Assembly (NCBI RefSeq): GCF_000196015.1
Contig: NC_007971.2
Location: forward strand, 1-64,000
Origin: Cupriavidus metallidurans CH34
Lineage (GTDB): Bacteria; Pseudomonadota; Gammaproteobacteria; Burkholderiales; Burkholderiaceae
Length of the DNA: 64,000 nucleotides
Direction: 5' to 3'
Of the stretch, positions 41,405-55,753 are shown in pieces; the first letter of the stretch is position 1; each line of letters begins with the position of its first letter. Under the pieces are notes generated by a model. It was given only the letters and a program-made list of their open reading frames with translations. It was not told the DNA's origin and searched no databases. The translations under genes and the position numbers were made by a program.

Positions 41405-41435
41405 CTCCTCCCTGCAAGAACAACCCTTACAGGAG
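41405..41435 (+). promoter_or_regulatory. SD-masking leader A
   Basis: CTCCT (41405-41409) can pair with AGGAG (41431-41435), the ribosome site of the next gene. The loop carries GCAAG. CCTGC (41411) with GCAGG (41435) is a competing pairing. Confidence 0.45.
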
Positions 41436-41443
41436 CAGGCGTT

Positions 41444-41809
41444 ATGGCACAAAAAATTGTACGTTGGCGTTCCAACTATCGCGGCGAGGCCCGGTTCGAC
41501 GTCGTTGCTGGACCTCTGGCCGGCGAGACGGTAGCGGTGCGGTTCCTGAAACCGGACTACTACGAAAAGGACTTCCGTGACAACGCTGGCGGCGTCTTCC
41601 TGCCGGACTGGGGGGTCTACACTCGAGAAGTGATGTCATCCGTTGGTATTGTCCGCAGCACGCTGCATCCCGCGGGTTTGCCGACTGACATCGTGGAAGC
41701 CGTGAACGCCGATTTCGACGATCTCCGGGCGTCTTCCGATCCCGGGATCTTCTTCGGCCCCTTCTTGAACGGTCGCTACGACCCGCAGGTTGGCTGGGTC
41801 GCTCACTGA
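41444..41809 (+). CDS. Hypothetical protein, 121 residues
   Basis: ACAGGAGCAGG precedes the ATG. Aromatic-rich beta-type protein (FDVVAGPLAGETVAVRFLKPDYYEKDF). Unrecognised; single-gene unit between terminators. Confidence 0.6.
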   Translation: MAQKIVRWRSNYRGEARFDVVAGPLAGETVAVRFLKPDYYEKDFRDNAGGVFLPDWGVYTREVMSSVGIVRSTLHPAGLPTDIVEAVNADFDDLRASSDPGIFFGPFLNGRYDPQVGWVAH

Positions 41810-41823
41810 TCCCGCTTTCGTAA

Positions 41824-41868
41824 CCCCATCGACCCACCAGGTGACTGCTGTCAACTGGTGGGGTTTTT
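41824..41868 (+). terminator. Intrinsic terminator
   Basis: CCCACCAG and CTGGTGGG stem, then GTTTTT. A second terminator hairpin follows at 41944. Confidence 0.8.
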
Positions 41869-41943
41869 CATTCGGCCGGCCACAGTGCGGCCGGGATCTT
41901 ACTGCTGCTGTTCCACATCGCCGGACACTATCCAACCCGTCCA

Positions 41944-41986
41944 TGCCCATCGCGTTCCGACTCAGGAACCGGTGGGCATTTTTTAT
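41944..41986 (+). terminator. Second intrinsic terminator
   Basis: TGCCCA and TGGGCA outer stem with inner GTTCC/GGAAC, then six T. The 75 nt between the two terminators hold no gene; a short RNA is possible. Confidence 0.8.
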
Positions 41987-42128
41987 CTGTCGCGCACGAC
42001 GCCCGCGAGCGCCTCGGCGCCGGGCGGATGGCTGGGCTCCCCGTCGCGGGGGGCGGCGGGCGGTGGTGGTCTACAACAATCAACGCGGGGGGCGGTGTTC
42101 AAGACTTAGTCGCGCCTGTTCCTCATCA

Positions 42129-42157
42129 CTCCGGGCAAGTCCAACTTCCATCCGGAG
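42129..42157 (+). promoter_or_regulatory. SD-masking leader B
   Basis: CTCCGG (42129-42134) pairs perfectly with CCGGAG (42152-42157), which is the ribosome site, over a 17-nt loop starting GCAAG. Confidence 0.55.
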
Positions 42158-42164
42158 ATCCCAA

Positions 42165-42818
42165 ATGCAAGACCAGTTCTATGTTCTTTACTCGCCCACC
42201 GAAGCCGCGGCTCTGACCGATGCTACACCTGGTGAGCACGGGGCCGGCTTCTGGTCGGCAGAGGATGGCTGGTCGAGCTTTGACAAGGCGACCCGTTACG
42301 CTGCCGGCCTGCGCGAGATTCTTCCGTTCCCGAAGAGCCTTGGCGACGATGCAGGCTGGGTGCTCGTCGACAGCATCCTGTTCCTGGCGCTGGCGAAGCG
42401 CTACTCGGAAGATCCGCAGCTTTCCGAGCAGCTTGATCGCCTTGCCGATCGTTATGCCGACGAGGTTATCGGCGGTCACCCGGAGCGTTTCAACTCCGTG
42501 GAGATCCAAGGCGTACGCAATGAGCACTCTCCGCGAGATGCCGGCGGCGGCATCGTCGAGCTCGACAACGTCGATCCCCAGTTCTATTCCGTCTATCTGC
42601 ACTACAAGCCGGAAGAAGAATGTGGGAGCGATTGCGTTGGCGACTTCGCCACGTACGAAGGCGCGGTTCAGTATGCCAACGAACTCGCCGAAGAGAATGG
42701 ATGGGCAATCCTTGATCTCGTCACCGAGCACGGCAGGACGCCGCGGTGGGAGCCAAGCCATTCCGTTCCGCGCGTGCTTCCTGTGCGCGGTCGTCATGAC
42801 CTCTCCGTTCAAATCTAA
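42165..42818 (+). CDS. Hypothetical protein, 217 residues
   Basis: Start at the ATG eight bases after the masked CCGGAG. Acidic soluble protein, residues 60-100 helical (LAKRYSEDPQLSEQLDRLADRY). Unrecognised. The same frame stays protein-like for about 60 codons after its TAA. Confidence 0.6.
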   Translation: MQDQFYVLYSPTEAAALTDATPGEHGAGFWSAEDGWSSFDKATRYAAGLREILPFPKSLGDDAGWVLVDSILFLALAKRYSEDPQLSEQLDRLADRYADEVIGGHPERFNSVEIQGVRNEHSPRDAGGGIVELDNVDPQFYSVYLHYKPEEECGSDCVGDFATYEGAVQYANELAEENGWAILDLVTEHGRTPRWEPSHSVPRVLPVRGRHDLSVQI

Positions 42819-43004
42819 CCAACACACTCTTCCCAATCCTACGGAAAGCTCGAGGAGGGCTCCCCAGCCTGGCTGCGAGCGACCTTCGACACTGAACACC
42901 CAGATCATCCCAGGTCGGCGTGGCGATCAGAGGTAGCAAACGATGACACCCTGCTCGGATATTGGGAATGGGTGTTCCACAGCATCGAAGGCGCAGCAGT
43001 CTGA
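42819..43004 (+). pseudogene. Gene fragment without start
   Basis: Reads YGKLEEGSPAWLRATFDTEH and on to WEWVFHSIEGAAV before TGA, clearly protein-like, but no start codon is in frame after the TAA at 42816. An ATG in another frame at 42798 could have been its start before a frameshift near 42835. Otherwise it is the old end of the 217-residue gene after a nonsense change. Confidence 0.35.
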
Positions 43005-43060
43005 GTCCGGGGCAAACAGCCTGGCACCGCGGCTGAGGCACCCACCCGCAACATAACCAC

Positions 43061-43110
43061 GTGCTGGCTACCAGCACACACGGCCGCTCACTATGTGAGC
43101 GGCATTTTCT
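43061..43110 (+). terminator. Tandem hairpins ending in a terminator
   Basis: GTGCTGG-CTA-CCAGCAC (43061-43077), then GCCGCTCA/TGAGCGGC (43083-43103) followed by ATTTTCTTT. Confidence 0.8.
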
Positions 43111-43118
43111 TTGCGCGT

Positions 43119-43207
43119 TCCTGATCTGCATTCCCTTCTGCAAGGGTTTTCCACTTAACCGCCAAATGCCTCGCACCCCGTGCGGGGCGAGCGGCTGGCT
43201 ATCAGGA
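43119..43207 (+). promoter_or_regulatory. SD-masking leader C (long form)
   Basis: TCCTGAT (43119-43125) pairs with ATCAGGA (43201-43207), covering the AGGAG ribosome site. Inside are CCCTT-CTGC-AAGGG (43133-43146) and a GC-rich hairpin, CCCC-GTGC-GGGG (43176-43187). The same architecture precedes the gene at 45234. Confidence 0.65.
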
Positions 43208-43215
43208 GCAAAGAA

Positions 43216-45009
43216 ATGGTTGACACAAAGACGATCGAGCTGTTCAGGCGTGACGAAATGGTCTTCACCGTGCAGGAACTGATCGAGAAGGCCTTGGCAG
43301 CGATCGGGGCCCTGTTCGCCGGCGGCCATCCGATTATTGTGGCCTACAGCGGAGGGAAGGACAGTTCTGTGGTGGCTGCCTTGGTTCTCCACGCGGCAGT
43401 TTTGGCAAAGGCGTCTGGGGGCAATCCACTGGTCATCGTGACGACAGGGGATACTGGCGTCGAGTCACCTGAGTCCCAGTCCTTGTACCAGGCTGAGACG
43501 GCGAAGATGCGGCGGTTTGCGAAGGATCACGGCGTTCGGCTTCTTACGAAGACGGTTCAGCCCACGCTGCTCTCGACCTGGCAGTTGAAGATTCTGAGCG
43601 GCCGAGGCCTTCCAAGCTTCCCGGGCTCTCAAAGTGACTGTTCTGTCGATCTCAAGATTCATCCTCAGCGCATGTTCCGACGCAAGCTGTTCAGAAAGCT
43701 TGCTCAGGAGAAGCTCCGCGAGCCCGTAACGTGTCTGGGCACCCGCCTGGACGAGGGCCAACGCCGCGCCGCTGCCATGCTTGTCCGCGGTGACCGCTCG
43801 GACGTGCCGGTTCGCAACAAGGACGGCGAGCTGATCCTCAGTCCGGTTCGGGTATGGAGCACCGACGATATATGGGAGGCCATCGCAATCTACGGCGGTC
43901 AGCAGTACCCATCGTTCTCGGACTTCGAAGAAACGAAACGCGTGTATGCACATTCCTCAGGCACGTCGTGCGCAGTTGTCGCTGATGCAATCTATGAGGG
44001 CGGCGAGAAGCGCGGGAAGGGCGGCTGTGGTGCTCGACTCGGGTGCCACGTGTGCCAAGTTGCGGAGGACAAATCGCTCGCCAACATGATCGAGTACGAC
44101 GCGCGCTATGCTTACGCCAAAGGGCTGAACCTGCTGAACCGTTTCATCCGCAATACTCGGTATGACTGGCAGAGGCGGCATTGGGTGGGGCGGACGATCA
44201 AAGAGGGTTGGGTCACAATCCAGCCGGATACTTACCATCCTTCAATGATTCGTGCGCTCACGCGCTACATGCTGCAGCTGGACTACGACGAAGAGTTGCG
44301 TGCAGCGAGTGCTGGTGAGCAGCCGAAGTTCAGGCTGCTTCCGCTGGATGTCATGATCGCTGTGGACGCAATGCAATCTCTGAACGGCGTGGCCATGCCA
44401 TTCTCGGTCTGGGCAGACCATCGGGACATCAGGCAACGAGGAGTCCGCTACGATGTGCCAGATGTGCCGGCAGTCAAGCAAAGCCCGATACCTGTTGCGC
44501 GGTTCCTGCATGTTGGCAAGGAGTGGGATTCGACGGCTGGCAATGCAACATGGACTGGCCTGCGTGACCCGTATTTTGAGGCTCTCACCGAGAGAAGTGG
44601 ATGTGCGCCGGAGCTGACGACCCTACGGGACGGAAAGCTTGCGTGGGCCGTGGAGACGGAGCCTACTTTCTCGGTGGACCTCGAGAGTGCCTGCTTTATC
44701 GAGGACTTCGAGGTGGACCGATTGCTCCGAATGCATGATCAGGGAGTGATGCCGGGCGGAGTTACCACAGGGTACCTTTGGTACTTGTCTTACGGGTGTC
44801 TCTCCCTGTCACACGCGCAGCAGAACGAACACGATGCGATCTGCCGTCGTACCGCACACAAGGATCGTCTCGGTATTACCTGTGAGTACGACATAGACGC
44901 ACTCATTGGTCGGTCGGTCGGGTTTGCCGATTTACCGCCTGAAGCCCGGGTTGCATGGGGCGGGAAGGCGACAACGGCATCGGCACAAGTCGATCTCTTG
45001 TTCAATTAA
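43216..45009 (+). CDS. PAPS-reductase/DndC-like ATP pyrophosphatase family protein
   Basis: 597 residues. The PP-loop SGGKDSS (45-51) marks an N-type ATP pyrophosphatase of the phosphoadenosine-phosphosulfate reductase superfamily. A Cys cluster near 280 (GGCGARLGCHVCQ) is what DndC-like proteins use to hold a 4Fe-4S cluster. DndC takes part in DNA phosphorothioation, but none of dndBDE or a cysteine desulfurase is in the window. Sulfur transfer to DNA, RNA or a metabolite is possible. Expression is probably gated by the leader upstream. Confidence 0.75.
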   Translation: MVDTKTIELFRRDEMVFTVQELIEKALAAIGALFAGGHPIIVAYSGGKDSSVVAALVLHAAVLAKASGGNPLVIVTTGDTGVESPESQSLYQAETAKMRRFAKDHGVRLLTKTVQPTLLSTWQLKILSGRGLPSFPGSQSDCSVDLKIHPQRMFRRKLFRKLAQEKLREPVTCLGTRLDEGQRRAAAMLVRGDRSDVPVRNKDGELILSPVRVWSTDDIWEAIAIYGGQQYPSFSDFEETKRVYAHSSGTSCAVVADAIYEGGEKRGKGGCGARLGCHVCQVAEDKSLANMIEYDARYAYAKGLNLLNRFIRNTRYDWQRRHWVGRTIKEGWVTIQPDTYHPSMIRALTRYMLQLDYDEELRAASAGEQPKFRLLPLDVMIAVDAMQSLNGVAMPFSVWADHRDIRQRGVRYDVPDVPAVKQSPIPVARFLHVGKEWDSTAGNATWTGLRDPYFEALTERSGCAPELTTLRDGKLAWAVETEPTFSVDLESACFIEDFEVDRLLRMHDQGVMPGGVTTGYLWYLSYGCLSLSHAQQNEHDAICRRTAHKDRLGITCEYDIDALIGRSVGFADLPPEARVAWGGKATTASAQVDLLFN

Positions 45010-45014
45010 ACACT

Positions 45015-45056
45015 CCCCGGGGGCGTATCCACGCTGCCCGGGGATTTTTCTTTTCC
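45015..45056 (+). terminator. Intrinsic terminator
   Basis: CCCCGGG and CCCGGGG stem over about 16 nt, then ATTTTTCTTTT. Confidence 0.85.
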
Positions 45057-45137
45057 GGTACGCTGTGGCGCGCATGGTGATCGGGCAGCGGGCCGCCGCA
45101 GAGGAGGGTTACGGCAAGGTGGCGTCCCCTTTCTGTT

Positions 45138-45227
45138 CTCCTGATCTACATCTCTTCTCGCAAGGACTTCCCAACAACCCCCAGGGCGTTCCGTGCCTTT
45201 GGGGCGCGGGCGACTGGATATCAGGAG
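45138..45227 (+). promoter_or_regulatory. SD-masking leader D (long form)
   Basis: CTCCTGAT (45138-45145) pairs with ATCAGGAG (45220-45227). Inside, TCTT/AAGG around CTCGC and a CCCC(A)/(T)GGGG hairpin match leader C in position, with different bases in the inner stems. Confidence 0.65.
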
Positions 45228-45233
45228 CATATT

Positions 45234-45662
45234 GTGCTGAATGCAATCTCGAACGAAACGACAGCTGGACTTGAACTGGCGGTTGCACTGGAGCTGTTCT
45301 GTGTAACTCTGGATTGGCAGCCTGGCGACGACGAGCAAGGCGACTACTCGGTATCCGTCTGGGCAGTCGACGAGGACGATGCCATTCGTCAGGTGGCAGA
45401 AGAAATGGCTGACTCCGGCGAGAAGAGCTTCGAGACCGAGGCAGAACGTGTGGCGTACATCCAGTGCGTCATCGACGGAGCTGGACAGTATGCCGCGGAA
45501 CATGTCAAGAACAGGTTGCTCAGTGATCTCGACAATCTGCTGAAGAACGATCGTCCGGAAGCACTGAAGGCAATCAAGGCCATCTTGGATGGTGCAGATC
45601 CAGCTGGCAGCACGACGCCGGCGGCCGACGATGCAAAGCGGAGCGATCCGCCTGCGCAGTAG
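45234..45662 (+). CDS. Acidic hypothetical protein, 142 residues
   Basis: GTG start seven bases after the masked AGGAG. Acidic, helical (DDAIRQVAEEMADSGEKSF), with Pro/Thr-rich end. Unrecognised. Confidence 0.6.
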   Translation: MLNAISNETTAGLELAVALELFCVTLDWQPGDDEQGDYSVSVWAVDEDDAIRQVAEEMADSGEKSFETEAERVAYIQCVIDGAGQYAAEHVKNRLLSDLDNLLKNDRPEALKAIKAILDGADPAGSTTPAADDAKRSDPPAQ

Positions 45663-45720
45663 GCACTGCGCATTTCAAAACTCGTCGCATCGACTAGCAC
45701 TCTAGTAGTGCAACTCAGAA

Positions 45721-45759
45721 CCCCGTTCATCCGAAAGATGAGCGGGGCTTTTTGTTTTT
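45721..45759 (+). terminator. Intrinsic terminator
   Basis: CCCCG(T)TCATC and GATGA(G)CGGGG stem over CGAAA, then TTTTTGTTTTT. A GCACT/AGTGC hairpin lies just before. Confidence 0.85.
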
Positions 45760-45797
45760 GGCCGGAGCTTCTGGTTGTGGACGTGTGTGACTCATTC

Positions 45798-45844
45798 CCA
45801 TTGGCAAGGACAAGGGGGAATGCCCCTACCAACCCTACCAATGG
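45798..45844 (+). promoter_or_regulatory. SD-masking leader E
   Basis: CCATTGG (45798-45804) pairs with CCAATGG (45838-45844), overlapping the GGAG ribosome site. The loop holds GCAAGGAC and a GGGG/CCCC hairpin. Confidence 0.6.
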
Positions 45845-45854
45845 AGTAAACAGC

Positions 45855-46310
45855 ATGATCGAATCCGCAAACACCGAAGTGAATGGCTTTTCGTCAACAA
45901 AGCTGCCGGTCGACCGTGACCTGATCAAATCGCAGCGCCTTCTCAACATGATTGAGGTTGTGGAAGTCCTCCATGCCCCGGACGGTGAGCGAACGCTCTG
46001 GCAGATGCTGGTTGACGCCGGCGCTGACATCGATCGAATCATTTTCCGAGATGTCGATGACCTCCAGGCCGAACGTGCGCCTGCCCTGCAGTTTCGCGTG
46101 GATACCTCGAAACTGAAGGGTTTTTTGGTCCTCGAGCATGCCCCTGGTCAGCACGGACTCCGTATTTTGGTCCAGACTGAGGGAACGATGGTGCTGAAGG
46201 TGGTCCATGCGGGGGTTCTCCTGCGCGACCTCGCGACGAAAATCGCTCACCTGATCGACGACGGTACCCGCCGGAACGAGCCCGCTAGCCGCGTGATCGT
46301 AAAGGAGTAA
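45855..46310 (+). CDS. Hypothetical protein, 151 residues
   Basis: ATG ten bases after the masked GGAG. Soluble alpha/beta protein; residues 55-120 form a plausible compact domain (DRIIFRDVDDLQAERAPALQF). Unrecognised. Confidence 0.6.
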   Translation: MIESANTEVNGFSSTKLPVDRDLIKSQRLLNMIEVVEVLHAPDGERTLWQMLVDAGADIDRIIFRDVDDLQAERAPALQFRVDTSKLKGFLVLEHAPGQHGLRILVQTEGTMVLKVVHAGVLLRDLATKIAHLIDDGTRRNEPASRVIVKE

Positions 46311-46316
46311 CCCATG

Positions 46317-46350
46317 GCCCCGGCGCACATAGTGCCCGGGGTTTTTCTTT
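46317..46350 (+). terminator. Intrinsic terminator
   Basis: GCCCCGG and CCGGGGT stem, then TTTTCTTT. Confidence 0.8.
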
Positions 46351-46483
46351 GTCTGGAGCCATCGCGGCGGGGCGGCGGCTCCCTCCTGCGGCAACTCGTG
46401 CGTGCTGCCGGGTATGCCGCGATGTTGATCATTCCGGCATATCAGGCCAGATCCGAGGCCTCAATTCTTCAGAAGGAACAAGA

Positions 46484-46963
46484 ATGTCTACCTCCAGGCA
46501 AGTCGATTTTCAGGAGCTTTGTCCTCATTGTGGGCAGGATTGCCTTGCAACGTTGTATGAGGACAATTTTGGGTACGAGTCCTCGGCGGCGCATTGTCAC
46601 GGCTGCGGCTACCGAGTCGCGGTCGATATCGGAGATGGTGGCGGCGTAGACGCAAGTATCCAGACGAACAAGCTTGGCGGCATGATCGTCTCAGGCTGCA
46701 TCGTGGACGGAGAGTCATGCTGCTCGATGACGCTTGGGAGCCTGATCGGAGGACAGACAATGCGTGATCGCGAGATCAGCAATGGCAGTCCCCCTGCCTG
46801 GTTCGCCTTTGTCGACGATGTTGGCGTAACGGTCCTTCGTGGCGCTCCTGCCGACGATCCGGCCTTTGCCGATATTGTCCTGGACGCGCGGAAACGGCTC
46901 GACGAGCTGGAAGTCGTCGCCGACGAGCAGCTTCAGGACATTCCTGAGCCTGTGGCACTCTAA
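46484..46963 (+). CDS. Zinc-ribbon-containing hypothetical protein, 159 residues
   Basis: Start after AAGGAACAAGA. Residues 12-45 have CPHCGQDC and, about 25 residues on, CHGCGY, the knuckle pair of a zinc ribbon. The rest is soluble and unrecognised. A TTCTT/AAGGAA hairpin can cover the ribosome site. Confidence 0.6.
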   Translation: MSTSRQVDFQELCPHCGQDCLATLYEDNFGYESSAAHCHGCGYRVAVDIGDGGGVDASIQTNKLGGMIVSGCIVDGESCCSMTLGSLIGGQTMRDREISNGSPPAWFAFVDDVGVTVLRGAPADDPAFADIVLDARKRLDELEVVADEQLQDIPEPVAL

Positions 46964-46969
46964 CCAACG

Positions 46970-47010
46970 ACGGCCCGTCCACTCTCGCGAGTGACGGGCC
47001 ATTTTCTCTT
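46970..47010 (+). terminator. Intrinsic terminator
   Basis: GGCCCGTC and GACGGGCC outer stem, ACTC/GAGT inner stem, then ATTTTCTCTT. Confidence 0.85.
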
Positions 47011-47103
47011 CTGATCGGCCGGCTTGTGTGCACCTGCGCTTCATATCAAGAGGCAAGGAGTAGAGCCTGCACCAGGCTAGAATTTCTCGAACAGGAGATT
47101 GAT

Positions 47104-47418
47104 ATGGATCACACCTTTGAAACTGGCGCCGAGATCGAGGGTTTCCTACGATCGGAGGGCCTTACGGATGCCTCGACCGGAGGAGGGTACTCGGGCTGGT
47201 TCCTCGAGCTCCAAGGGCAATCGGGACCCTGGCAGATCATGATCTCTGACTGGACGACCGATAGCACCAACTTGCAGCCGGGCAAACCCATCGGAATCGC
47301 GCTCTACGCACCCGGTGGTGTCGAAACACAAGCCGAGGTGTTGCCCAATGCCGATGGCTTGCGGGATGCGCTGAAGCGGTTCAAGGATGCCGGCGTACAG
47401 CAGTTCGGTACCGTCTAA
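47104..47418 (+). CDS. Hypothetical protein, 104 residues
   Basis: CAGGAGATTGAT precedes the ATG; TCTC/GAGA (around 47087) can mask it and GGCAAGGAG lies upstream. Beta-rich soluble protein (GWFLELQGQSGPWQIMISDW). Unrecognised. Confidence 0.6.
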   Translation: MDHTFETGAEIEGFLRSEGLTDASTGGGYSGWFLELQGQSGPWQIMISDWTTDSTNLQPGKPIGIALYAPGGVETQAEVLPNADGLRDALKRFKDAGVQQFGTV

Positions 47419-47434
47419 GGCTGAGGAGCTAAAC

Positions 47435-47554
47435 ATGGTCATCCGTGCCAAGGCAGGTACAACGTTTGTCTACGAACTCAATGGCTTCCGCCTAACTGAC
47501 CATCTGGTCAACGGAGAGTGGGTCACCGTCAAGGTTGAACCGCTACCGGCATAA
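47435..47554 (+). CDS. Small hypothetical protein, 39 residues
   Basis: GAGGAG precedes the ATG, 16 bp after the previous gene and before a terminator. Product is a small beta-type peptide (AGTTFVYELNGFRLTDHLVN). Unrecognised, but context and ribosome site support it. Confidence 0.55.
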   Translation: MVIRAKAGTTFVYELNGFRLTDHLVNGEWVTVKVEPLPA

Positions 47555-47574
47555 CCTGATCGCACCGCGATCGC

Positions 47575-47618
47575 AGCCTCCAGCTCACGATGTGTGACTG
47601 GAGGCTTTTCTTTTTTTG
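47575..47618 (+). terminator. Intrinsic terminator
   Basis: AGCCTCCAG and CTGGAGGCT perfect 9-bp stem, then TTTCTTTTTTT. Confidence 0.9.
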
Positions 47619-47638
47619 AGTACCGCTCCGTGTGAAAC

Positions 47639-47685
47639 ATCTCCTACCTGTCAGGCCATCGCAAGTGGCCTCTTACCCAGGAGAT
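47639..47685 (+). promoter_or_regulatory. SD-masking leader H
   Basis: ATCTCCT (47639-47645) pairs with AGGAGAT (47679-47685), the ribosome site. An inner hairpin GGCCA-TCGCAAG-TGGCC (47654-47670) is nearly identical to one at 55715-55731. Confidence 0.7.
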
Positions 47686-47690
47686 CGATC

Positions 47691-48530
47691 ATGAGCCATT
47701 TTTCCAAAGCAGTAGACCGCCGTTCCCGCCGTGCGATGACGGAATTCTTGTCCTCGCACTTCCGCTACCACACCGCTGGCAGCCACAACCGCAGTACTTC
47801 GTATGCCCACTGCATCAAGGTCGACCGGCTTGGCTTGAACCGCGAGCAAACCGACGCCGCGTATGACATGCTGGCGGCGGAGACGTACTGGGATCGCATA
47901 GATGATCCCATTCGCGAGTTCACCCACTCCATGCACGGGATGTACACGATCGGGACGAACGGGCGCTCCGGTGGCTATTTGGTCCTCTATCGCAGTGAGT
48001 ACAAGAGCACGGAGCATCTGTCCTTCTGCCGGTCGTGCGGCCAGCGGAACTTCAGGCGAGTCGCTCCTACCTTGGACGGCGCGGAAGGCATCATCGGCGC
48101 CGAAATCCTCCGCAATGGGGGCCTCTGGCACGACGACGTCTACCTCGGTCAATCGGCCATCCAGGCGATCGCGCTCTCGGACACCGAAAAGCTGGCCATG
48201 GTTAGCAAGCTCAAACCGCTGTTGAAGGACTGTTCCGCGGACAACCGTTGCGGCGTCTGTTCGGCCACCGGCGATCGCGGGCGCGTGAACTACGAAAAGT
48301 CCCCGGTCACGCTTTCGCACTGGCCAATGCGTCCCATCGACCAGGATGCTGATTTCAGTGACATGAGCATGGACGAACTGCGCTCGCGCGTCGACGTCGT
48401 CACGGCGTTCGATGCTGCGTGCGATGAGATTCGCGAGAATTTCATCGAGTTGCTGTCTGACTTCGCGCCGGTTGAACGAACCATCATGGTTCCCAAGACC
48501 GTCACCGTCCTCGAGCGACGCGCGGCTTAA
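47691..48530 (+). CDS. Hypothetical protein with Cys pairs, 279 residues
   Basis: ATG after the masked AGGAGAT. Two Cys pairs (SFCRSCGQRNF and CGVCSATGDRG) could bind metal. Mixed alpha/beta, unrecognised. Single-gene unit. Confidence 0.65.
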   Translation: MSHFSKAVDRRSRRAMTEFLSSHFRYHTAGSHNRSTSYAHCIKVDRLGLNREQTDAAYDMLAAETYWDRIDDPIREFTHSMHGMYTIGTNGRSGGYLVLYRSEYKSTEHLSFCRSCGQRNFRRVAPTLDGAEGIIGAEILRNGGLWHDDVYLGQSAIQAIALSDTEKLAMVSKLKPLLKDCSADNRCGVCSATGDRGRVNYEKSPVTLSHWPMRPIDQDADFSDMSMDELRSRVDVVTAFDAACDEIRENFIELLSDFAPVERTIMVPKTVTVLERRAA

Positions 48531-48536
48531 CCGCCC

Positions 48537-48573: not shown

Positions 48574-48641
48574 TGATTGGTCACGGCCCGGATCTATACC
48601 TGCTTGTAGGGCATCACCCCTTACCAGGCATGTGGAGAGTC

Positions 48642-48705
48642 GGGGCGCCCTGCGGCCCGTTCCTCCAATCCAACCACCGCCCAACCGTCCTCACAGGGCG
48701 GCCCC
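48642..48705 (+). promoter_or_regulatory. Long leader hairpin J
   Basis: GGGGCGCCCTG (48642-48652) pairs with CAGGGCGGCCCC (48694-48705) with one bulged G, closing about 41 nt. GGGCATCACC occurs directly on both sides of it, near 48609 and 48708. Confidence 0.45.
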
Positions 48706-48725
48706 AAGGGCATCACCAAGGATAG

Positions 48726-48935
48726 ATGATGCGAACCGACAAGCAGGTTGTCGAGCAGACGAACGAGTTGGCCAGACAACTCTACGAGTTGCTGGGCTAT
48801 CACGTACGACAAGGGTATCGCTTTGACAAGGCCACCCATCCTCATGAGGTCGAGGCATGGCGTGGCGCCTGTGCGGCGCAGCGTTTGCTGACCGACACGG
48901 ACCCCGAGGATGCACTCGCAAACGTGGAGGACTGA
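48726..48935 (+). CDS. Small hypothetical protein, 69 residues
   Basis: CAAGGATAG before ATG-ATG. Helical, charged (EQTNELARQLYELLGYHVRQ). Unrecognised. Confidence 0.6.
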   Translation: MMRTDKQVVEQTNELARQLYELLGYHVRQGYRFDKATHPHEVEAWRGACAAQRLLTDTDPEDALANVED

Positions 48936-49040
48936 ATCTACTGGTTTGGCATCGTCCACGGCAGCTATCAAACGCCTGTAGAGACTCGCCCTGTGGCAAG
49001 CACTTACGGCACAATTCCCGAATCGGAGAAAGGCACAGAA

Positions 49041-49415: not shown

Positions 49416-49437
49416 ACCCAAGTCTGATCCAAACCAA

Positions 49438-49475
49438 CCCCGGTTGCTCTCTCGAGCTGCCGGGGTTTTTCTTTT
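49438..49475 (+). terminator. Intrinsic terminator
   Basis: CCCCGG and CCGGGG stem with TCTCTCGAG inside, then TTTTTCTTTT. Confidence 0.85.
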
Positions 49476-49486
49476 GTGGCCCGCTT

Positions 49487-50491
49487 TCAGGTACGAGGCC
49501 TTGTGGCCAGTCCCGAAAGCCACCAGGACGGGGCGCGATGGTACACATTCGCCCGATGCCACGCGAGGTACTTGCACATATCTGCGTCGGGCTGACGCAA
49601 CCTGAGCGCCCCCGTTAAGACCGAGATGCCACGGTAGCGACAGTAGTCCCCGTACTCGGACGACATGAGTAGGCAGCCATCGTCATCGAACGACACCAAG
49701 CCGCTGCAAAATGCCATGTCGACATGGGTGGCGAGCAGTAAAACGTTGGATAAGTCCATCCGTTCTGCGTCGGTGCAGGCGGACCAAGGCTTGAGGTGGG
49801 TTACGCAAAGTAGGGCGGGGTCCCCAAGCCCAGTTAAGTCGCAGCGAGTCACGTGGAGTCGGAGCAGGGCCTTCCTGATCAAATCCAGGCCTACTTGCTG
49901 TCTCGCAAGCTGGTCGGCCTCAGACTTGGCGGGAATATGGGCCGTTGCTTGTCGGAACTGGTGCAACAACGAGGCTTCCGTCTCAATCTCTGCTATGGAG
50001 CTCGGAGGAATGGCCACAAGCGAGTTTGAAGCTTCAGCCGGCTCCGCAGCTGGCAACGCCACCATCCGAGGCGGCGACATTAGTATGGCCGCACCTTCCC
50101 GATAGAGATCGTCTGGGTTCAGGAGGCCTATGCGGACATCGTGATAGTGGCCCAGGAAACTCAGCGCTTCGTGCGTATTGGCAAACCCAATCCCGAGCCA
50201 GTCGGCGCCACGTTGATGGCCCGCATAGCGCTTAGTGACGGCGAGTTGTCGGGTAATCCACGCCGTAATCTTCCGCGGGCGGGTGGCCGTCGACTCGATG
50301 CGCTCAGTACAAATGGCGAGCTCCAACTGGTGGCCGGGCAGCGTAGCGGACCAGTAGAGCGAGCACGCCAGCCTCCCATGCCGCATCAAGCCCACGCCGT
50401 CGCTCAGGCCACGTTGTGCCGGCGCCAAGAAAGCGATCTCTGCCTTCTTGACGATGTGCTCCCAGCAAGAGGGGACGACGGGAACAGTCAT
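49487..50491 (-). CDS. HNH endonuclease-like protein
   Basis: 334 residues. The C-terminal third carries an HNH signature of the type found in bacterial restriction or repair nucleases: RCDLTGLGDPALL, then THLKPWSACTDAERMD, then NVLLLATHVDMAFCSG. The first two thirds are unrecognised and could recognise DNA. The first Cys-pair ligand is reduced to one Cys. No methylase lies beside it. Confidence 0.65.
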   Translation of the reverse strand: MTVPVVPSCWEHIVKKAEIAFLAPAQRGLSDGVGLMRHGRLACSLYWSATLPGHQLELAICTERIESTATRPRKITAWITRQLAVTKRYAGHQRGADWLGIGFANTHEALSFLGHYHDVRIGLLNPDDLYREGAAILMSPPRMVALPAAEPAEASNSLVAIPPSSIAEIETEASLLHQFRQATAHIPAKSEADQLARQQVGLDLIRKALLRLHVTRCDLTGLGDPALLCVTHLKPWSACTDAERMDLSNVLLLATHVDMAFCSGLVSFDDDGCLLMSSEYGDYCRYRGISVLTGALRLRQPDADMCKYLAWHRANVYHRAPSWWLSGLATRPRT

Positions 50492-50828
50492 TCAAACCCC
50501 TGGTTCGGTCGGGATGTTTCACGAGCCTCCGCGGTGCTCCGGGTCACCGGAGACTCGGCTGCAGCCCCCAGCGCAACACCAGAACTGCCACAGCAACAAG
50601 ACGACATGGGGGGGGAAGGGCAAGTAACCCATCCTCTTGTTCGGTTAGATGGCCCGCGGCCGAGCGACCGTTCGATTTCTTGCAGGCCGCCGTCAGCGCA
50701 CGTGTAGGCCAATTTCCACCGCATGGCTACAACCTATAGGCTGCAGATCAATCGACACCGGCCTACGAAAGCGTTGCAGATCCCCATCAATGCCGCGGAC
50801 AAAACAGCAGATTCCGGCGGGGGAAACG

Positions 50829-50865
50829 GCAAATATGTGCCGTTATTTGCACCCAAATGTATAAT
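50829..50865 (+). promoter_or_regulatory. Promoter and inverted repeat before the recombinase-like gene
   Basis: GCAAATA (50829-50835) and TATTTGC (50844-50850) form an inverted repeat; TATAAT (50860-50865) follows. The rest of 50492-50916 shows no gene. Confidence 0.5.
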
Positions 50866-50916
50866 GTAGCTAACAGTCAAGCGTGAAGCACCCCTCCACA
50901 CATCCCGCGAGCGCAC

Positions 50917-52092
50917 ATGGCCAACAAGGAAATCTTCGAGCCGAAAACCGTCGACTGGCAGAACGACCCCACGCAAGCTTTTGACGGCTGGCTCTCCACG
51001 CTGAAGGGCCGCCGAAAGGATGCGCCGCAGCTGAAAGTCTCCTCAGTTGAGATCTACAAGCTGCAGTGGGGGAAGTTCCTCGCGTTCCTGGACCAAAGGA
51101 AGATCCTAGTCACCGAGACAACTGCGAAGGATGTCTCAGATTTTCTTTCGACACTGGCCAACACCAACGCGTCAAGCCAGCGGGAACGATATCGTGCTCT
51201 CCTTGAGCGGGTATTCAAACACCTCCTCGGCGCCGATGCAACGACCGACGAGCGGCTCAATCCCGCTAGCTGTTCGTCCCAAGGGATAGAACCGGGTAGA
51301 AAGAATTTATTGAATACAGCGCTGCAGATGGGCTTCCTGCGCCGTTCTGAGTACGACATACTGGTCTCCCATCTGAACAGCCCGCTCAAACCAGCAACCG
51401 ACATCACCGCACACCGCAAACAACTACGCGACCGCGCCATGGTGGCCGTGTTTCTCGGGGCAGGCCTGAAGGTTCACCAGGCATTGAGCCTGACTGTTAG
51501 CTGCATCGAGACGAAACGTGCCGTACAAATCACCGTTCAGGAAGAGGATTCGAAGTTCTTTCACCAGGTGCGCGTCATGCCGTTCGCGGCGGATCTGCTC
51601 AAACGATGGTTGGCGCAGCGACGGAAGTGGGAGCGCGAATGCCTGAAGAAGGGCCGCAAGGTGGGCGATCTGGTTTTCCCGGCGGAGATTGTTGATCCCG
51701 ACCGGCTGCAGGCCCTCGAGGAAGATTCTCCGGACGCAAAGCCCAGCGCCGGCTCATGGATCGACCTCCTCGATACAGAGGGGGCTGCAGGAATCTCCCG
51801 GCGTGGCCGCAATGGCACCGGTACCCGGTTGGTTGGGCGTGCGATGAACTCGGTCATGGCACTGCGCGTATGTGAGGCGGTCATGCAGGAGTCGGGGGTG
51901 TACACGAGCCAGGAGGGCGCCGCTGCCGAGAGCATCAGCCCCCAAATACTCCGGAACAGCTTTGCCGCGGCTCTTTTTGCGTCAGGCGAAACGACGTTGG
52001 GCGTGCAGAACCAGCTGGGGTTCGCGGAAGAAATCTCCGCTGCGCGACTGAAAGCCGCGTGGGATTCCTGGCGCAGCTTTGGCAATGACTAG
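50917..52092 (+). CDS. Tyrosine-recombinase-like protein lacking catalytic residues
   Basis: 391 residues with an N-terminal core-binding (SAM-like) domain (about 20-110) and a C-terminal integrase fold. Box I reads GAGLKVHQALSL, with Lys for the catalytic Arg. Box II reads SPQILRNSFAAALFASGETT, then LGF where LGH is normal, and ends SAARLKAAW with no Tyr nucleophile. Of the usual R-H-R-H-Y set only the second Arg remains. It is probably a DNA-binding relative rather than an active integrase. Confidence 0.7.
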   Translation: MANKEIFEPKTVDWQNDPTQAFDGWLSTLKGRRKDAPQLKVSSVEIYKLQWGKFLAFLDQRKILVTETTAKDVSDFLSTLANTNASSQRERYRALLERVFKHLLGADATTDERLNPASCSSQGIEPGRKNLLNTALQMGFLRRSEYDILVSHLNSPLKPATDITAHRKQLRDRAMVAVFLGAGLKVHQALSLTVSCIETKRAVQITVQEEDSKFFHQVRVMPFAADLLKRWLAQRRKWERECLKKGRKVGDLVFPAEIVDPDRLQALEEDSPDAKPSAGSWIDLLDTEGAAGISRRGRNGTGTRLVGRAMNSVMALRVCEAVMQESGVYTSQEGAAAESISPQILRNSFAAALFASGETTLGVQNQLGFAEEISAARLKAAWDSWRSFGND

Positions 52093-52229
52093 TGACTCGC
52101 CGGCAAGTCGCCGCCCCCCCGTCCGGCATCGCGGCAGCCACGACGCCACGTCATGCACACGAAATAGGCCAGCCGAGCGGCTCAAAGCCGCGTGGGATAG
52201 CTGGCGCATATTCTCGCCGGCCCGATTCT

Positions 52230-54167
52230 TCAGGGGTTGACGGCCGCCGGCGCGATCCCCCGTGCCAGTTCGGAGACGAGGGCGGCCATCCTGGAGCAAT
52301 GCCCGCGCTTTTCTGGCGCAATATCCGCCAGTTCCGACGCCCATCGCTTGTAGCGAATGAATGTAGACGGCTTCAATGCAGCGAGCCTTTCCATCTGACC
52401 CGAGTCCGAGACCACGACCGCGCTGACGATGCCGTCGCCCAAGAGCGAGGCAATGCCGTAGTCCTCAAGCTCCGCGCTCTCGTCGTTGAGCAGCCTGCTT
52501 GGGGCTCGTTTGCCTGGAAGGGTAGTTCCCAAGCCGGCCCCAATGATATCTATCGTCAGGCCCGCAGCGTTCAACGCACTGAATCTCCCGGCGTGGCCGA
52601 CCAACTCCTCAAACGTCTCATCGACCTCCCGCAGAGCATCAATCAGAGCCTTTGGTGTCAACGCGCCGGCAGCTAACAGTTGCACCCGCTTACCAAAGAG
52701 CCGGTGCCGGGATGCGTCCGTGATGATGGCACCGGCGGCCGATGCGTAGACCAGACAGGCATAGTTTCCGATTGCTACCAATCGATCCCCGAGCTCCATC
52801 TGCCGGAGAGCCCGCAGAAAGGAAACCAGCGTTGAAGGCGCATGCTGGCCTGCGAACAGCGTCTTGTTGGTGCCCTCCACCGATAGCATGCTCGTGCGCA
52901 AATCGGCAACGCGCTGCGCCGTTTGCTTTTGCCCGCGCCAGGCATAGAACCCGTCCGCATAATCTGAGAACGCCTTGGAGGCAATGCAGTAGTTGGCGAA
53001 CTCCTGCGCTGTCATTGTCCGAATGTGGAAGTCGGCCACCGCCTCGGCATAGACGATCTGCCGCATCCTCGGTGTCTCGCGCTCCGATGCTCGCAATGGC
53101 TCGGATTCAGGATGGCGAGTGGTCGCTGGCCTGGCCTGTTCCTGGTCCGTTGACGGCTCAGGCTCCAACCCCGCAAACCGCCGCAGGTGAAGGCGCTGCT
53201 TGTCCGACAACGTGCCCTTGGGGATATCAATACTGACGTGAAGGACCAGGTCCCCGGACCCATCCCCGCTCCTCAGCCCTTGCCCAGCAAGCCTGAGGTA
53301 CTTCCCGGCGCGTGTCCCGGCGGGAATCTTGATTTGGAGATCGCTGCCCAAGACTTCGAATGTTCGGGTGGCACCAAGCATTGCGTCGATGCAATCGATT
53401 CGGATCTCCGTGTAGACATTCAGTCCCCGAACGTGGCCAAGCTTGTGCTTCTTGACTTGAATGATGCAGTAGAGGTCTCCTGGGGCGCCGCCGTTGAAGC
53501 CTGGGCCGCCTTTCCCAAGTAGCCGGAGGTTGCAACCATTGTGCGTCCTTGCCGGCACCGTCACTTCGAATAGATGATCCCTCGATAGGTAGCCGCGTCC
53601 TGTACACCAAGGGCAGCGCGTCCTGGCCCTAGCTCGGCCCCTACCACTACACGCGTAGCAGCCAATACCGCCGCATTCAGGACACTCCGTCGTGTATGCG
53701 TGGAAAAGGAAGCCAGTCCCGTCGCAAAGCGGGCAGTCGTCATCGGCGAGCCAGCCGACTCTCACGTACCCACCACGAAGCACAGTCTGCACATCGGTAG
53801 TGGCCTTCACGAACAAGTCGCGGCCGTGCTCCGGGGGCTTTGGTGGGGGGCTGCGCCGCGAGGATTGGCGTTGATGCCGGCTCGGTCCAGAATCGAAATC
53901 GTCATCGCCGTCGGCTTCGTCGTCTGCCGCGAAGCCGCCGAACCCTGTGCGCGCATCGTAGGCCTGCTTGCGCGCGTCATCGGACAGAACGGCGTAGGCG
54001 CGATTGATGTCCTTGAGCCGCTCTTCGGCCAATTTCCGCTCGGCTTCCGGGGCCTTGGACAGTCGATCCGGATGCCACTTCTGGGCAAGGCGCCGGTACG
54101 CGGTGCGGATAGTTGCCGCATCAGCGTCAGGGCTGACTCCCAGCGTCTGATAGTGGTTCTCCGACAT
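52230..54167 (-). CDS. DnaJ-type chaperone with extra C-terminal domain
   Basis: 645 residues from MSENHYQTLG (the longest frame starts at 54212). J domain 4-72 with HPD at 32-34. After an acidic spacer come four CxxCxGxG motifs at 145, 162, 170 and 185, then the two substrate-binding beta domains to about 350. This is a full class A DnaJ, normally about 375 residues. The last 270 residues (AEAVADFHIRTMTAQEFANY and on) are unrecognised. It may recruit Hsp70 to a plasmid-specific target. Confidence 0.85.
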   Translation of the reverse strand: MSENHYQTLGVSPDADAATIRTAYRRLAQKWHPDRLSKAPEAERKLAEERLKDINRAYAVLSDDARKQAYDARTGFGGFAADDEADGDDDFDSGPSRHQRQSSRRSPPPKPPEHGRDLFVKATTDVQTVLRGGYVRVGWLADDDCPLCDGTGFLFHAYTTECPECGGIGCYACSGRGRARARTRCPWCTGRGYLSRDHLFEVTVPARTHNGCNLRLLGKGGPGFNGGAPGDLYCIIQVKKHKLGHVRGLNVYTEIRIDCIDAMLGATRTFEVLGSDLQIKIPAGTRAGKYLRLAGQGLRSGDGSGDLVLHVSIDIPKGTLSDKQRLHLRRFAGLEPEPSTDQEQARPATTRHPESEPLRASERETPRMRQIVYAEAVADFHIRTMTAQEFANYCIASKAFSDYADGFYAWRGQKQTAQRVADLRTSMLSVEGTNKTLFAGQHAPSTLVSFLRALRQMELGDRLVAIGNYACLVYASAAGAIITDASRHRLFGKRVQLLAAGALTPKALIDALREVDETFEELVGHAGRFSALNAAGLTIDIIGAGLGTTLPGKRAPSRLLNDESAELEDYGIASLLGDGIVSAVVVSDSGQMERLAALKPSTFIRYKRWASELADIAPEKRGHCSRMAALVSELARGIAPAAVNP

Positions 54168-54293
54168 CCCAGGAACGTGTGTCTTGTGGGCCAAAGCGGA
54201 AGCGTGGCACAAGCGCGCAATATTGCATAGGGTGTCTCAGATTGCGCCATGGCGTGGGTCCTGGCCGGCGGCAATCGCAAGCCCCAAAGAAAA

Positions 54294-54324
54294 AAGGCCA
54301 TCGGGAGAACCCGAATGGCCTTTT
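54294..54324. terminator. Bidirectional terminator
   Basis: AAGGCCAT(C)GGG and CCC(GA)ATGGCCTT stem. Leftward tail TTTTTTCTTT is strong; rightward tail is TTTTC. Confidence 0.8.
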
Positions 54325-54328
54325 CACA

Positions 54329-54541
54329 TCATCGGCGGACGTGCCGATCGGCCATCGAGTGGCGATAGAGCACGACTACCAGCAGCAGAAGCGCCGCGTT
54401 TCGATTCAAGGTGCCAAGGAGGACATTCATTCCCGAAACTTCCGCCATCTCCGCACGCATCCGAGGATGAATGCAGAGGAGGGCGATCATGACAAATGAC
54501 CCCGGCATCGCAAGGAATGCCGCGAAGGCTAGCTTTTTCAT
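54329..54541 (-). CDS. Small membrane protein, 70 residues
   Basis: Two hydrophobic helices (about 5-24 and 40-60) and an Arg/His-rich end. CGGAG lies 12 nt before the ATG. Divergent from the gene at 54664; ends at the terminator. Unrecognised. Confidence 0.6.
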   Translation of the reverse strand: MKKLAFAAFLAMPGSFVMIALLCIHPRMRAEMAEVSGMNVLLGTLNRNAALLLLVVVLYRHSMADRHVRR

Positions 54542-54589
54542 CGTGACTGACTCCGTTATCTGTTACCTCGGAGATGCGGTACACGACCT

Positions 54590-54662
54590 TGTATCTCGAT
54601 TGCAGGTGGGTGATCTGCATAGCCAAGCATCACGCAAACGCTCCCCACCTCAAGGAGATACA
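54590..54662 (+). promoter_or_regulatory. SD-masking leader L (multi-stem)
   Basis: TGTATCTC (54590-54597) pairs with GAGATACA (54655-54662), overlapping AAGGAG. Nested inside are GGTGGG/CCCACC (54605-54610 with 54644-54649) and GTGAT/ATCAC (54610-54614 with 54629-54633). GCCAAGCATC takes the place of the GCAAG element. Confidence 0.6.
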
Positions 54663-54663
54663 G

Positions 54664-55194
54664 ATGAATGAAGCCCTTCCCACCAAGCACGAACTTCGCC
54701 GTCAGATGCATGAAGCGCTGGGCAGTTGGCTGTATGCCCGTCGCGCGACGAGTAAAACCAAGCAGGAGCGAGCCGAACACGTCCTCGACTACCGTCGCCG
54801 GCGGAATCAGCTTGCGGCAGGGATGTACCGCGAGGAAGTCAATGCACGCGGGAATACCGTCCATCGCGATCTGGATGCGGATCTGGCGCTCGGGTTTGTT
54901 AGCCGGGATCGATACGTGTATGACAGCAAGCTCTGCGGCGCCGGCTGGCAACAGTACGACACCGACCAGGATGCCCCTTACTTCGGGTGTTGGGTCAACC
55001 TCGAAAAGCGTTGGACCATGTGCTACGCCGAAGGCGACCGGATTCTGGTGAAATGCCCCAGCGAGGAATCGCTGAAGGCCGAGCTCGCCGACATGGATCG
55101 GTTCTATGGCCGGGCTCCTGCCGCGTTCACCTTGTTTGCCTCCGGTGGGCAGGCAACCCAGCTCGTATGCGAACGACCATCGGTCACACCCTGA
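54664..55194 (+). CDS. Hypothetical protein, 176 residues
   Basis: ATG just after the masked GGAGATACAG. N-terminal basic helices (LYARRATSKTKQERAEHVLDY), then an aromatic-rich region. Unrecognised. Single-gene unit with leader and terminator. Confidence 0.65.
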   Translation: MNEALPTKHELRRQMHEALGSWLYARRATSKTKQERAEHVLDYRRRRNQLAAGMYREEVNARGNTVHRDLDADLALGFVSRDRYVYDSKLCGAGWQQYDTDQDAPYFGCWVNLEKRWTMCYAEGDRILVKCPSEESLKAELADMDRFYGRAPAAFTLFASGGQATQLVCERPSVTP

Positions 55195-55211
55195 TCCGTC
55201 AAGCCTCTACG

Positions 55212-55243
55212 CCCCCGTGTTATTCACGGGGGTTTTGTTTTTC
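55212..55243 (+). terminator. Intrinsic terminator
   Basis: CCCCCGTG-TTATT-CACGGGGG, then TTTTGTTTTT. Confidence 0.9.
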
Positions 55244-55307
55244 TGCGCGGCCATTAGCTGACGCTGTGAGCCATACCCGATCACAGACCAACGCAAAGGA
55301 GGCTTTC

Positions 55308-55475
55308 GTGATCACCTGGCCTGACCTCAGGATTCCCCCCATCAACCTCTGGAATGCCCCCAGGGTGCAGCTCCCCAGCACCGTTCCCACACATAGGGCG
55401 CAACCGACCAACGGGCACCGAGGGCAGTTTCGCCCCGTCACTGCGGAGATCCAACAGCTGCTCAAAGCCCGATGA
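55308..55475 (+). CDS. Small Pro-rich protein, 55 residues
   Basis: GTG start with AAAGGAGG at ideal spacing. Pro/Arg/Gln-rich, unrecognised. A terminator follows. Confidence 0.55.
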   Translation: MITWPDLRIPPINLWNAPRVQLPSTVPTHRAQPTNGHRGQFRPVTAEIQQLLKAR

Positions 55476-55503
55476 CCTGCCATATCAATGAACTGCACCA
55501 CCG

Positions 55504-55540
55504 ACGCCCTGGCTAGCAAGACAGCCGGGGCGTTTCCTTT
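55504..55540 (+). terminator. Intrinsic terminator
   Basis: ACGCCC(T)GGCT and AGCC(G)GGGCGT stem, then TTCCTTTTCC. Confidence 0.75.
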
Positions 55541-55583
55541 TCCATCCACCCCATAGCCCCGTCACCAGCTGCCGCCTTCTGCC

Positions 55584-55616
55584 CTATGCGCACTGCGCAT
55601 TGCGCATTGCGCATAG
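55584..55616. repeat. TGCGCA-type palindrome
   Basis: CTATGCGCA and TGCGCATAG (9-bp arms) enclose further TGCGCATTGCGCA copies. Same core as the palindromes at 3047, 6373 and 6475. Confidence 0.55.
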
Positions 55617-55697
55617 CGTGCGCTGGCCGTGGATACCCGACCCGCCTCCGCGTCCTGCCCGACCTCCCACCGCTCACCAGGTTACAGCCACCTGGTG

Positions 55698-55753
55698 GTC
55701 ATCACCTGGCGTACGGCCATCGCAAGTGGCTCCTTTCAACCTCAGGAGATGAC
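55698..55753 (+). promoter_or_regulatory. SD-masking leader I
   Basis: GTCATC-A-CCTG (55698-55708) pairs with CAGG-A-GATGAC (55743-55753), covering the ribosome site. The inner hairpin GGCCA-TCGCAAG-TGGCT (55715-55731) has the same loop as leader H, 8 kb away. Confidence 0.7.

Follow-up and report, generated by a model that had tools for sequence, protein, structure and literature searches.

Introduction

Leaders that sequester the Shine-Dalgarno (SD) site of their own message are known from RNA thermometers, translational riboswitches, and CsrA or ribosomal-protein leaders. Among sigma factors, CnrH (encoded on plasmid pMOL28) and E. coli sigmaE are of the extracytoplasmic function (ECF) type, which contains a region 4 and uses -35/-10 promoters. 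The T7 promoter has a layout from -17 to +6. This report concerns a family of SD-masking leaders, the promoter element that they share, and a gene for a sigma-like protein of 381 residues, all located in a 64,000-nucleotide stretch of DNA from Cupriavidus metallidurans CH34 (contig NC_007971.2 of assembly GCF_000196015.1, positions 1 to 64,000 of the forward strand), which is called the window here. Base 1 of the window is base 350 of the pMOL30 record NC_006466.1 (100% identity, 15.5 kb compared). We consider it probable that megaplasmids of the pMOL30 type encode a sigma-like factor that drives a regulon of SD-locked leaders from one compact promoter.

A plasmid-encoded sigma factor is described for the Gram-positive Bacillus subtilis, in which SigN (ZpdN) of plasmid pBS32 is associated with cell death after DNA damage (PMC6751061). 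For strain CH34, a catalogue of 5,763 transcription start sites (TSSs) places 468 on the two plasmids, and many of the sites lack RpoD motifs (PMC9045368). In the part of the PMC literature searched here, with subscription papers outside it, neither the element nor any sigma factor encoded by these plasmids was found to be described.

A promoter element shared by the leaders of related megaplasmids

Distant BLASTN located related DNA on Cupriavidus plasmids, on Caballeronia p2, and on B. vietnamiensis pBVIE01; Pseudomonas pSTY was among those with a short match. At the gene starts of these relatives the leader takes a cleaner form, CATCTCC...GCAAGTTCAACC...AGGAGAT(G), with a stem of 13 bp in pSTY. 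A covariance model termed R1, built from 16 simple leaders, gave 133 matches at E ≤ 10 in 638 kb; at E ≤ 5 there were 30 on pSTY, 42 on pBVIE01, 45 on p2, 21 on the P. veronii plasmid, 29 on pJ20133-VIM, and 9 on pMOL30. In the genome to which the window belongs (4 contigs, 6.9 Mb; 150 of 1048 candidates scored), at least seven matches were found at E ≤ 5, six of them inside the window, and the best is the element at 42106..42164 with 45.6 bits. A search of related plasmids with such a model had been suggested in an earlier note on this DNA, made from the sequence alone, and it returned many matches on homologous plasmids. An exact leader pattern, searched genome-wide, was found in 36 stretches, about four of which look real (L017, L025, L027, L040). 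By eye, 14 of the 36 show a single coding sequence from Prevotella and its close relatives, the others look like chance, and a match in one viral contig shows no leader.

Directly 5' of the self-pairing RNA, leaders on eight megaplasmids carry a DNA element of fixed spacing, TT(A)-N6-CSTGT-N4-CATCTCC. Its logo was made from 80 non-redundant copies anchored at CAT, which remained of the best 100 of the 133 R1 matches after one without the anchor and near-duplicates were dropped. Conservation in these copies is 71% for T-18, 99% for T-17, 56% for A-16, 71% for C-9, 93% for T-7, 97% for G-6, and 79% for T-5. C0, A1, and T2 stand at 97-100%, partly by selection because the R1-found sets are biased toward GCAAGTTCAAC and CAT; T-17 is independent of R1, since the model begins near -14. 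Upstream of -18 the 80 copies show no clear signal and no conserved -35 position.

Written as a regular pattern, the element is more frequent than its own shuffle and than all 12 altered spacings on eight related plasmids or stretches. The counts are 59 on pSTY versus 12 shuffled and at most 37 for altered spacings, and 30 on pMOL30 versus 11 and at most 25; an unrelated Sulfuricystis stretch has no excess (5 versus 4 shuffled and up to 6 for altered spacings). For the promoter matrices, pSTY, pBVIE01, and pMOL30 were each scanned with the matrix trained on the other group, and RPME01 (Methylibium), which lies outside the training set, with the matrix of all 80 copies. At 14 bits or more, the betaproteobacterial-trained matrix found 33 sites on pSTY (2 in the shuffle) and the Pseudomonas-trained matrix found 73 on pBVIE01 (1 in the shuffle) and 28 on pMOL30 (1 in the shuffle; the 28 include repeat copies at 14.0). 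The Sulfuricystis stretch gave 0 or 1 site with these matrices, not above shuffle.

These promoter-only matrices find 33-81 sites per plasmid, most of them before a ribosome site and an open frame. At 13 bits or more, an SD site and an open frame of 50 codons follow 28 of 37 sites on pSTY, 68 of 81 on pBVIE01, 18 of 33 on pMOL30 (where 7 of the 33 lie in one repeat, record 189036-189444), and 38 of 45 in the part of RPME01 scanned; for random positions the respective figures are 12.1%, 11.8%, 13.4%, and 15.5%. Of these sites followed by an SD and a frame, 9/28 on pSTY, 12/68 on pBVIE01, and 5/18 on pMOL30 have the end of a terminator-like hairpin and T run no more than 90 nt upstream, compared with less than 1% of random positions. 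Among 40 of the 52 RPME01 matches, T-17 is present at 88%, and TGT and CATC are reproduced. In Aromatoleum EbN1 plasmid 1 (20 of 22 matches read, 17 anchored, with CATCTC part of the anchor), the TT is kept at 94 and 88% and the middle CSTGT block is lost or changed, as expected if a diverged factor reads a diverged block.

Pairing of the leaders with their own Shine-Dalgarno site

The earlier note had described a recurring leader that masks its own SD site and carries GCAAG in the loop. This is the RNA half of a real, large, and coherent regulatory family: the leader is present on homologous plasmids, and both its pairing and its covariation exceed shuffles. Because R1 selection biases the sets that it finds, leaders collected by the promoter matrix alone were tested separately; some orthologous leaders of related plasmids remain in the sets. 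In this promoter-only set (n = 146), the pairing of leader nucleotides 3-12 is stronger with the SD of the same leader than with swapped ones (z -9.0, 0 of 2000 permutations), GCAAG occurs inside 55 leaders against 4.4 in shuffles, and CAACC inside 44 against 10.0.

The position of the pairing arm was mapped by sliding a 5' window over 55 R1-found leaders. Strong own-specific pairing is confined to 0..9, 3..12, and 6..15 (z -4.9, -8.5, and -5.8), the position -3..6 is borderline (41 of 1000), and none appears from -30 to -6. RPME01 (n = 32) and EbN1 (n = 16) repeat the own-specific pairing at 3..12 and 6..15. Since the signal begins at about CATC, transcription probably starts in or beside this motif. 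By pair counting (A2), 43 cells show changes on both sides of the stem compared with 21.3 (sd 3.8) in shuffles (0 of 500 reaching this count), which also exceeds all slid versions; further pair types are not above shuffles (203 of 500). The leaders possess an arm complementary to their own SD, with covariation, as SD-sequestering leaders do.

GCAAG itself occurs in 0/16 leaders of EbN1, the most distant plasmid, where GCA[AG] is found in 15/16, by eye mostly as GCAG. The complement of GCAAGTTCAACC, searched as a 12-mer with at most one mismatch, occurs at 14 places (pSTY 7, pBVIE01 4, pMOL30 3), of which 6 on pSTY and 2 on pBVIE01 were judged on inspection to be leaders or leader-like, the rest resembling coding sequence; no gene for an antisense small RNA is suggested by this search.

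A sigma-like gene on the same plasmids

The candidate plasmid sigma factor, encoded at 12363..13508 on the reverse strand, has a sigma-70 region-2-like domain (approximately residues 36-150), a linker, and two XRE-type helix-turn-helix (HTH) segments. Homology to sigma-70 region 2 is present; no region-4 model matched, and the C-terminal half matches XRE-type HTHs. Its homologue in EbN1 is 25% identical over 326 residues and is annotated as sigma-70. A sequence search of solved structures with A3 returned six weak rows (E 0.16 to 0.74), and in a draw of the family 4 of 299 genomes match the protein, one only in its C-terminal part. Directly upstream, at 13535..13819 (reverse strand), lies a gene for an all-helical protein of 94 residues (model pLDDT 84), predicted to be a helix bundle with uninformative fold matches; it adjoins the sigma-like gene in pSTY, pBVIE01, RPME01, and P. 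koreensis p3 as well, not in P. luteola. A second protein of 94 residues in the cluster, at 14004..14288 (reverse strand), is 19% identical to the first in alignment.

One copy of a second recurrent site, TACGTGTTATGTATC, is located between the two 94-residue genes. This site resembles the promoter from -11 to +3, occurs in the window at 13930 (-), 3193, 19133, 16341 (-), and 9979 (-), and by a loose pattern is found 3+3 times on pMOL30, 6+6 on pSTY, and 10+5 on pBVIE01. It may be an operator.

Where the sigma-like gene is present, R1 matches are found at E ≤ 5 on RPME01 (52) and on EbN1 plasmid 1 (22), both outside training, and at E ≤ 1 on P. koreensis p3 (28) and in two same-genus genomes (18 each), one of which seems to contain the EM10 plasmid, a source of leaders for the logo. 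Where the full gene is lacking, there are none at E ≤ 5 on Sulfuricystis pSTJ2 and on Allochromatium pAt1, which has only a C-terminal match to the protein, and at E ≤ 1 none on pHG1, pCAR1, and pWW0, one at E 0.64 on pQBR103, and 0-2 in seven same-genus genomes (best E 0.23). G190, also with only a C-terminal match, has two matches (best E 0.03). The gene and a matching promoter set, as a plasmid sigma factor with its own regulon would have, stand on the same replicon with one exception, P. luteola.

A conserved RNA of about 600 nucleotides

A structured noncoding RNA gene of about 600 nt is found at 60687 (-) of the pSTY record (L060:100-695:-), at 242861 (-) of pBVIE01 (L086), and in C. campinensis (L150, from base 576). 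Its promoter appears to be the same one, with a score of 20.0 bits in L150, where the gene has a GCAAGGTTCAAC leader at its start; a terminator-like hairpin and a T run stand at the end. At least part of it occurs on 21 plasmids; on pMOL30 it was not found. RNAalifold of three sequences gives 161 pairs, 27 with compensatory change. An Rfam search of the regions on pSTY and pBVIE01 (L059, L060, L086; E ≤ 0.5) matched no family there, the only hit being a sub-threshold rnk_pseudo match elsewhere.

Proposed mechanism and alternative explanations

In the proposed mechanism, the plasmid sigma-like factor would direct the host RNA polymerase to TT(A)-N6-CSTGT-N4-CATCTCC, a promoter that in about a quarter of cases sits behind a terminator-like hairpin. 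The first 12 or so nucleotides of the message would then pair with its own SD site, so that each gene, transcribed by a plasmid-specific polymerase, would be translationally damped by default. The loop or inner hairpin would present GCA(A)G and then a (U)CAAC(C) tract to a putative reader, which may be a protein, the ribosome, or an RNA. Expression of dozens of plasmid genes seems to be gated twice in this way, by the promoter and by the self-masking leader. A fuller version is offered tentatively and is doubtful as a whole: a switch with two keys that would govern plasmid genes when the host is new or under stress, in which the region 2 plus XRE-type HTH sigma factor of a deep-branching megaplasmid lineage would read a promoter of about 24 bp over the start site, CATCTCC would serve as both initiator and translational lock, the GCA(A)G/CAACC loop would address a plasmid RNA factor, and the RNA of about 600 nt would modulate the system. 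That the regulon acts in establishment or stress is a guess.

Two observations weigh against a plasmid sigma-like factor with SD-locked leaders. The own-SD pairing is weak in pMOL30 alone (n = 18, z -1.9, 66 of 2000 permutations), and P. luteola NZ_CP044084 carries the sigma-like gene, yet has a single weak element match. The P. luteola gene (NZ_CP044084.1, 267430-268590) adjoins transposon and cadR genes. It may be a stranded copy.

The reader of the promoter might also be a sigma factor of the host, or RpoD with a conventional activator, and the sigma-like protein might have some other role; the P. luteola plasmid, with the gene and almost no elements, and the XRE-type HTH segments of the protein agree with this. 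This explanation is unlikely in view of the six plasmids and seven same-genus genomes without the full gene, in all of which the element is missing or no more than noise (0-2 matches, best E 0.23), of the occurrence of the element on plasmids of both beta- and gammaproteobacteria, and of the missing conserved -35 position upstream of -18.

The earlier note had instead attributed the control of many plasmid genes to one RNA-binding factor or ligand. An RNA regulon of this kind, with GCAAG in the SD-masking leaders recognised by a single RNA-binding protein, small RNA, or ligand and with the upstream conservation belonging to the RNA, would account for the self-pairing and the loop enrichment, both of which are real, and for the element shared by the conserved RNA of about 600 nt. 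A factor acting on GCAAG may exist. T-17 and TGT (-7 to -5) are highly conserved at fixed spacing and take no part in own-specific pairing, GCAAG is not universal, and the EbN1 leaders lack it. CsrA and ProQ were rejected as loop readers, as neither gene was found on any of nine plasmids (0/9 each; controls matched), and the window contains no Rfam match at gathering score. The co-regulation is explained without an RNA factor by a DNA promoter element common to the leaders, which are found together with the sigma-like protein; an RNA regulon alone is quite improbable.

It is also very unlikely that the element is a promoter only, with CTCC in the initial transcribed region complementing the SD by accident and the leaders free of translational regulation. 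CATCTCC is conserved even where full pairing is impossible, a match of 4 bp is automatic because GGAG is the universal SD core, and pMOL30 alone is weak, all as this explanation would have it; in three plasmid sets, nevertheless, pairing is better with the leader's own SD than with a swapped one, and changes on both sides of the stem are more frequent than in shuffles. Least probable is a dedicated single-subunit RNA polymerase reading a T7-like promoter from -17 to +6, which the compact length and the position of the conserved blocks recall; a PF00940 search of six plasmids gave no matches (control genomes gave none either).

Leaders and elements in the window

Eight SD-complementary pairs had been pointed out in the window, and all eight were found within 8 nt of the positions given. 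Their longest perfect Watson-Crick arms are 5, 6, 7, 8, 7, 7, 6, and 8 bp for the pairs at 41405, 42129, 43119, 45138, 45798, 47639, 55698, and 54590, respectively. In the 55698 pair the 3' arm is 55748-55753, which shares one base with the SD, and the predicted stem covers the SD once one mismatch is allowed. The claim that every loop holds GCAAG is true for seven of the eight, in which GCAAG or GCCAAG stands between the arms; in 45798/45838, GCAAG overlaps the end of the 5' arm.

A chance test against shuffled upstream DNA covered 45 window genes with a recognisable SD, 13 of which were labelled promoter-bearing (our choice, taken from the promoter-matrix scan). Stems that cover the SD with arms of 5 bp or more and enclose GCAAG or GCCAAG are found in 7/13 promoter-bearing genes (0.28 expected) and in 6/32 others (1.41 expected). 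With arms of at least 6 bp and GCAAG not required, the counts are 6/13 against 1.87 and 4/32 against 3.06; by itself, stem length is thus only modestly informative here. The association with GCAAG, which exceeds the shuffles, is together with the comparison to other plasmids strong evidence. Fold z values of seven folded window leaders are mixed (-0.18 to -3.12; best relative -4.47).

As RNA stems, not all eight pairs hold. Three of the 5' arms (43119, 45138, and 54590) end before the CAT at which self-pairing sets in, and a fourth, at 55698, spans it; these four are probably not transcribed leader stems, or only partly so. For the first three an RNA stem is judged unlikely, and the arms are assigned to promoter or upstream DNA, because own-specific pairing begins only at about CATC.

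The elements of the window are given as promoter plus leader, with bit scores from the promoter matrix, and lie on the forward strand except for one. The first, 11252..11324 (CATC 11270, gene 11325), has 23.0 bits with the matrix from Pseudomonas plasmids only. The element 11953..12039 (CATG 11971, 18.9 bits) precedes a proposed start at 12040, where no frame of 50 codons passed the filter, and 34793..34895 (CATA 34811, 14.4 bits) precedes gene 34896. In 41384..41443 (CATC 41402, 19.3 bits), the anti-SD CTCCT (41405-41409), GCAAG (41414), and the SD AGGAG (41431-41435) lead to gene 41444, and in 42106..42164 (CATC 42124, 21.0 bits) CTCCGG (42129-42134), GCAAG (42135), and the SD side CCGGAG (42152-42157) lead to gene 42165. 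The element 43111..43215 (CATT 43129, GCAAG 43140, 18.2 bits), in which the arm 43119-43125, CCTGAT, is part of the promoter, precedes gene 43216, which encodes a PAPS-reductase/DndC-like protein; 45131..45233 (CATC 45149, GCAAG 45160, 20.7 bits), with the arm 45138-45145 upstream of CATC, precedes gene 45234. Next are 45775..45854 (CATT 45793, 18.3 bits), where CCATTGG (45798-45804) is complementary to CCAATGG (45838-45844) before gene 45855, and 47024..47103 (CATA 47042, 14.6 bits), which has GCAAG and gene 47104. The element 47620..47690 (CATC 47638, 21.9 bits, gene 47691) combines ATCTCCT (47639-47645) with AGGAGAT (47679-47685) around an inner hairpin GGCCA-TCGCAAG-TGGCC (fold z -2.49). 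A possible element with long spacing is 48594..48725 (CATC 48612, 16.2 bits, gene 48726). The reverse-strand element 54542..54594 (CATC 54576, 17.8 bits) serves gene 54329-54541, and on the forward strand 54600..54663 (CATA 54618, 15.4 bits), with the arm 54590-54597 upstream of CATA, precedes gene 54664. The last, 55682..55755 (CATC 55700, 15.4 bits), contains the inner hairpin GGCCATCGCAAGTGGC before gene 55756.

Further GCAAG elements had been proposed before 6751, 12040, 47104, and 49041; those before 12040 and 47104 carry the shared element, and those before 6751 and 49041 are without it at 13 bits. The frame at 6751-7236 encodes a backbone protein common to pSTY and pBVIE01, with a weak match to phage single-strand DNA binding families. 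Annotated genes downstream of elements are mostly hypothetical; among the named ones are an N-6 DNA methylase, a cysteine protease, the PAPS-reductase/DndC-like protein, and a DUF3150 protein. The element region adjoins the traW-traU-trbC genes on at least three plasmids. The last gene with a leader, at 55756, appears to be cut: within 55756-56600, a match to a Tn3-family transposase known from other plasmids takes over after about 56003.

Significance and comparison with known systems

If this reading is true, megaplasmids of Cupriavidus, Burkholderia, Caballeronia, Methylibium, Aromatoleum, and Pseudomonas have a gene-expression system that is largely their own, and the co-regulation of scores of small unknown genes across hosts is explained. 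The members of the regulon can be listed from sequence, the sigma-like protein is without a recognisable region 4, promoter and translational control are joined in one short sequence, and all parts are testable in the model strain CH34. The catalogue of start sites concerns the same strain, and the element is not described in the part of it consulted here (PMC9045368).

SigN resembles the factor proposed here in being a plasmid-encoded sigma factor; it differs in its Gram-positive host and in its link to cell death after DNA damage, and an SD-masking leader is not mentioned for it in the part of the source consulted (PMC6751061). Unlike the ECF sigma factors CnrH and sigmaE, the 381-residue protein has XRE-type HTHs instead, and its element is without a visible -35 block. 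With the known SD-sequestering leaders the family shares an upstream arm that hides the ribosome site; it differs in numbering dozens of copies per plasmid, in an arm that falls on the start region of the promoter, and in a shared GCA(A)G/CAACC loop. The best reading is a regulon served by a plasmid-borne sigma-like factor, which is a known kind of system, combined here with SD-masking leaders.

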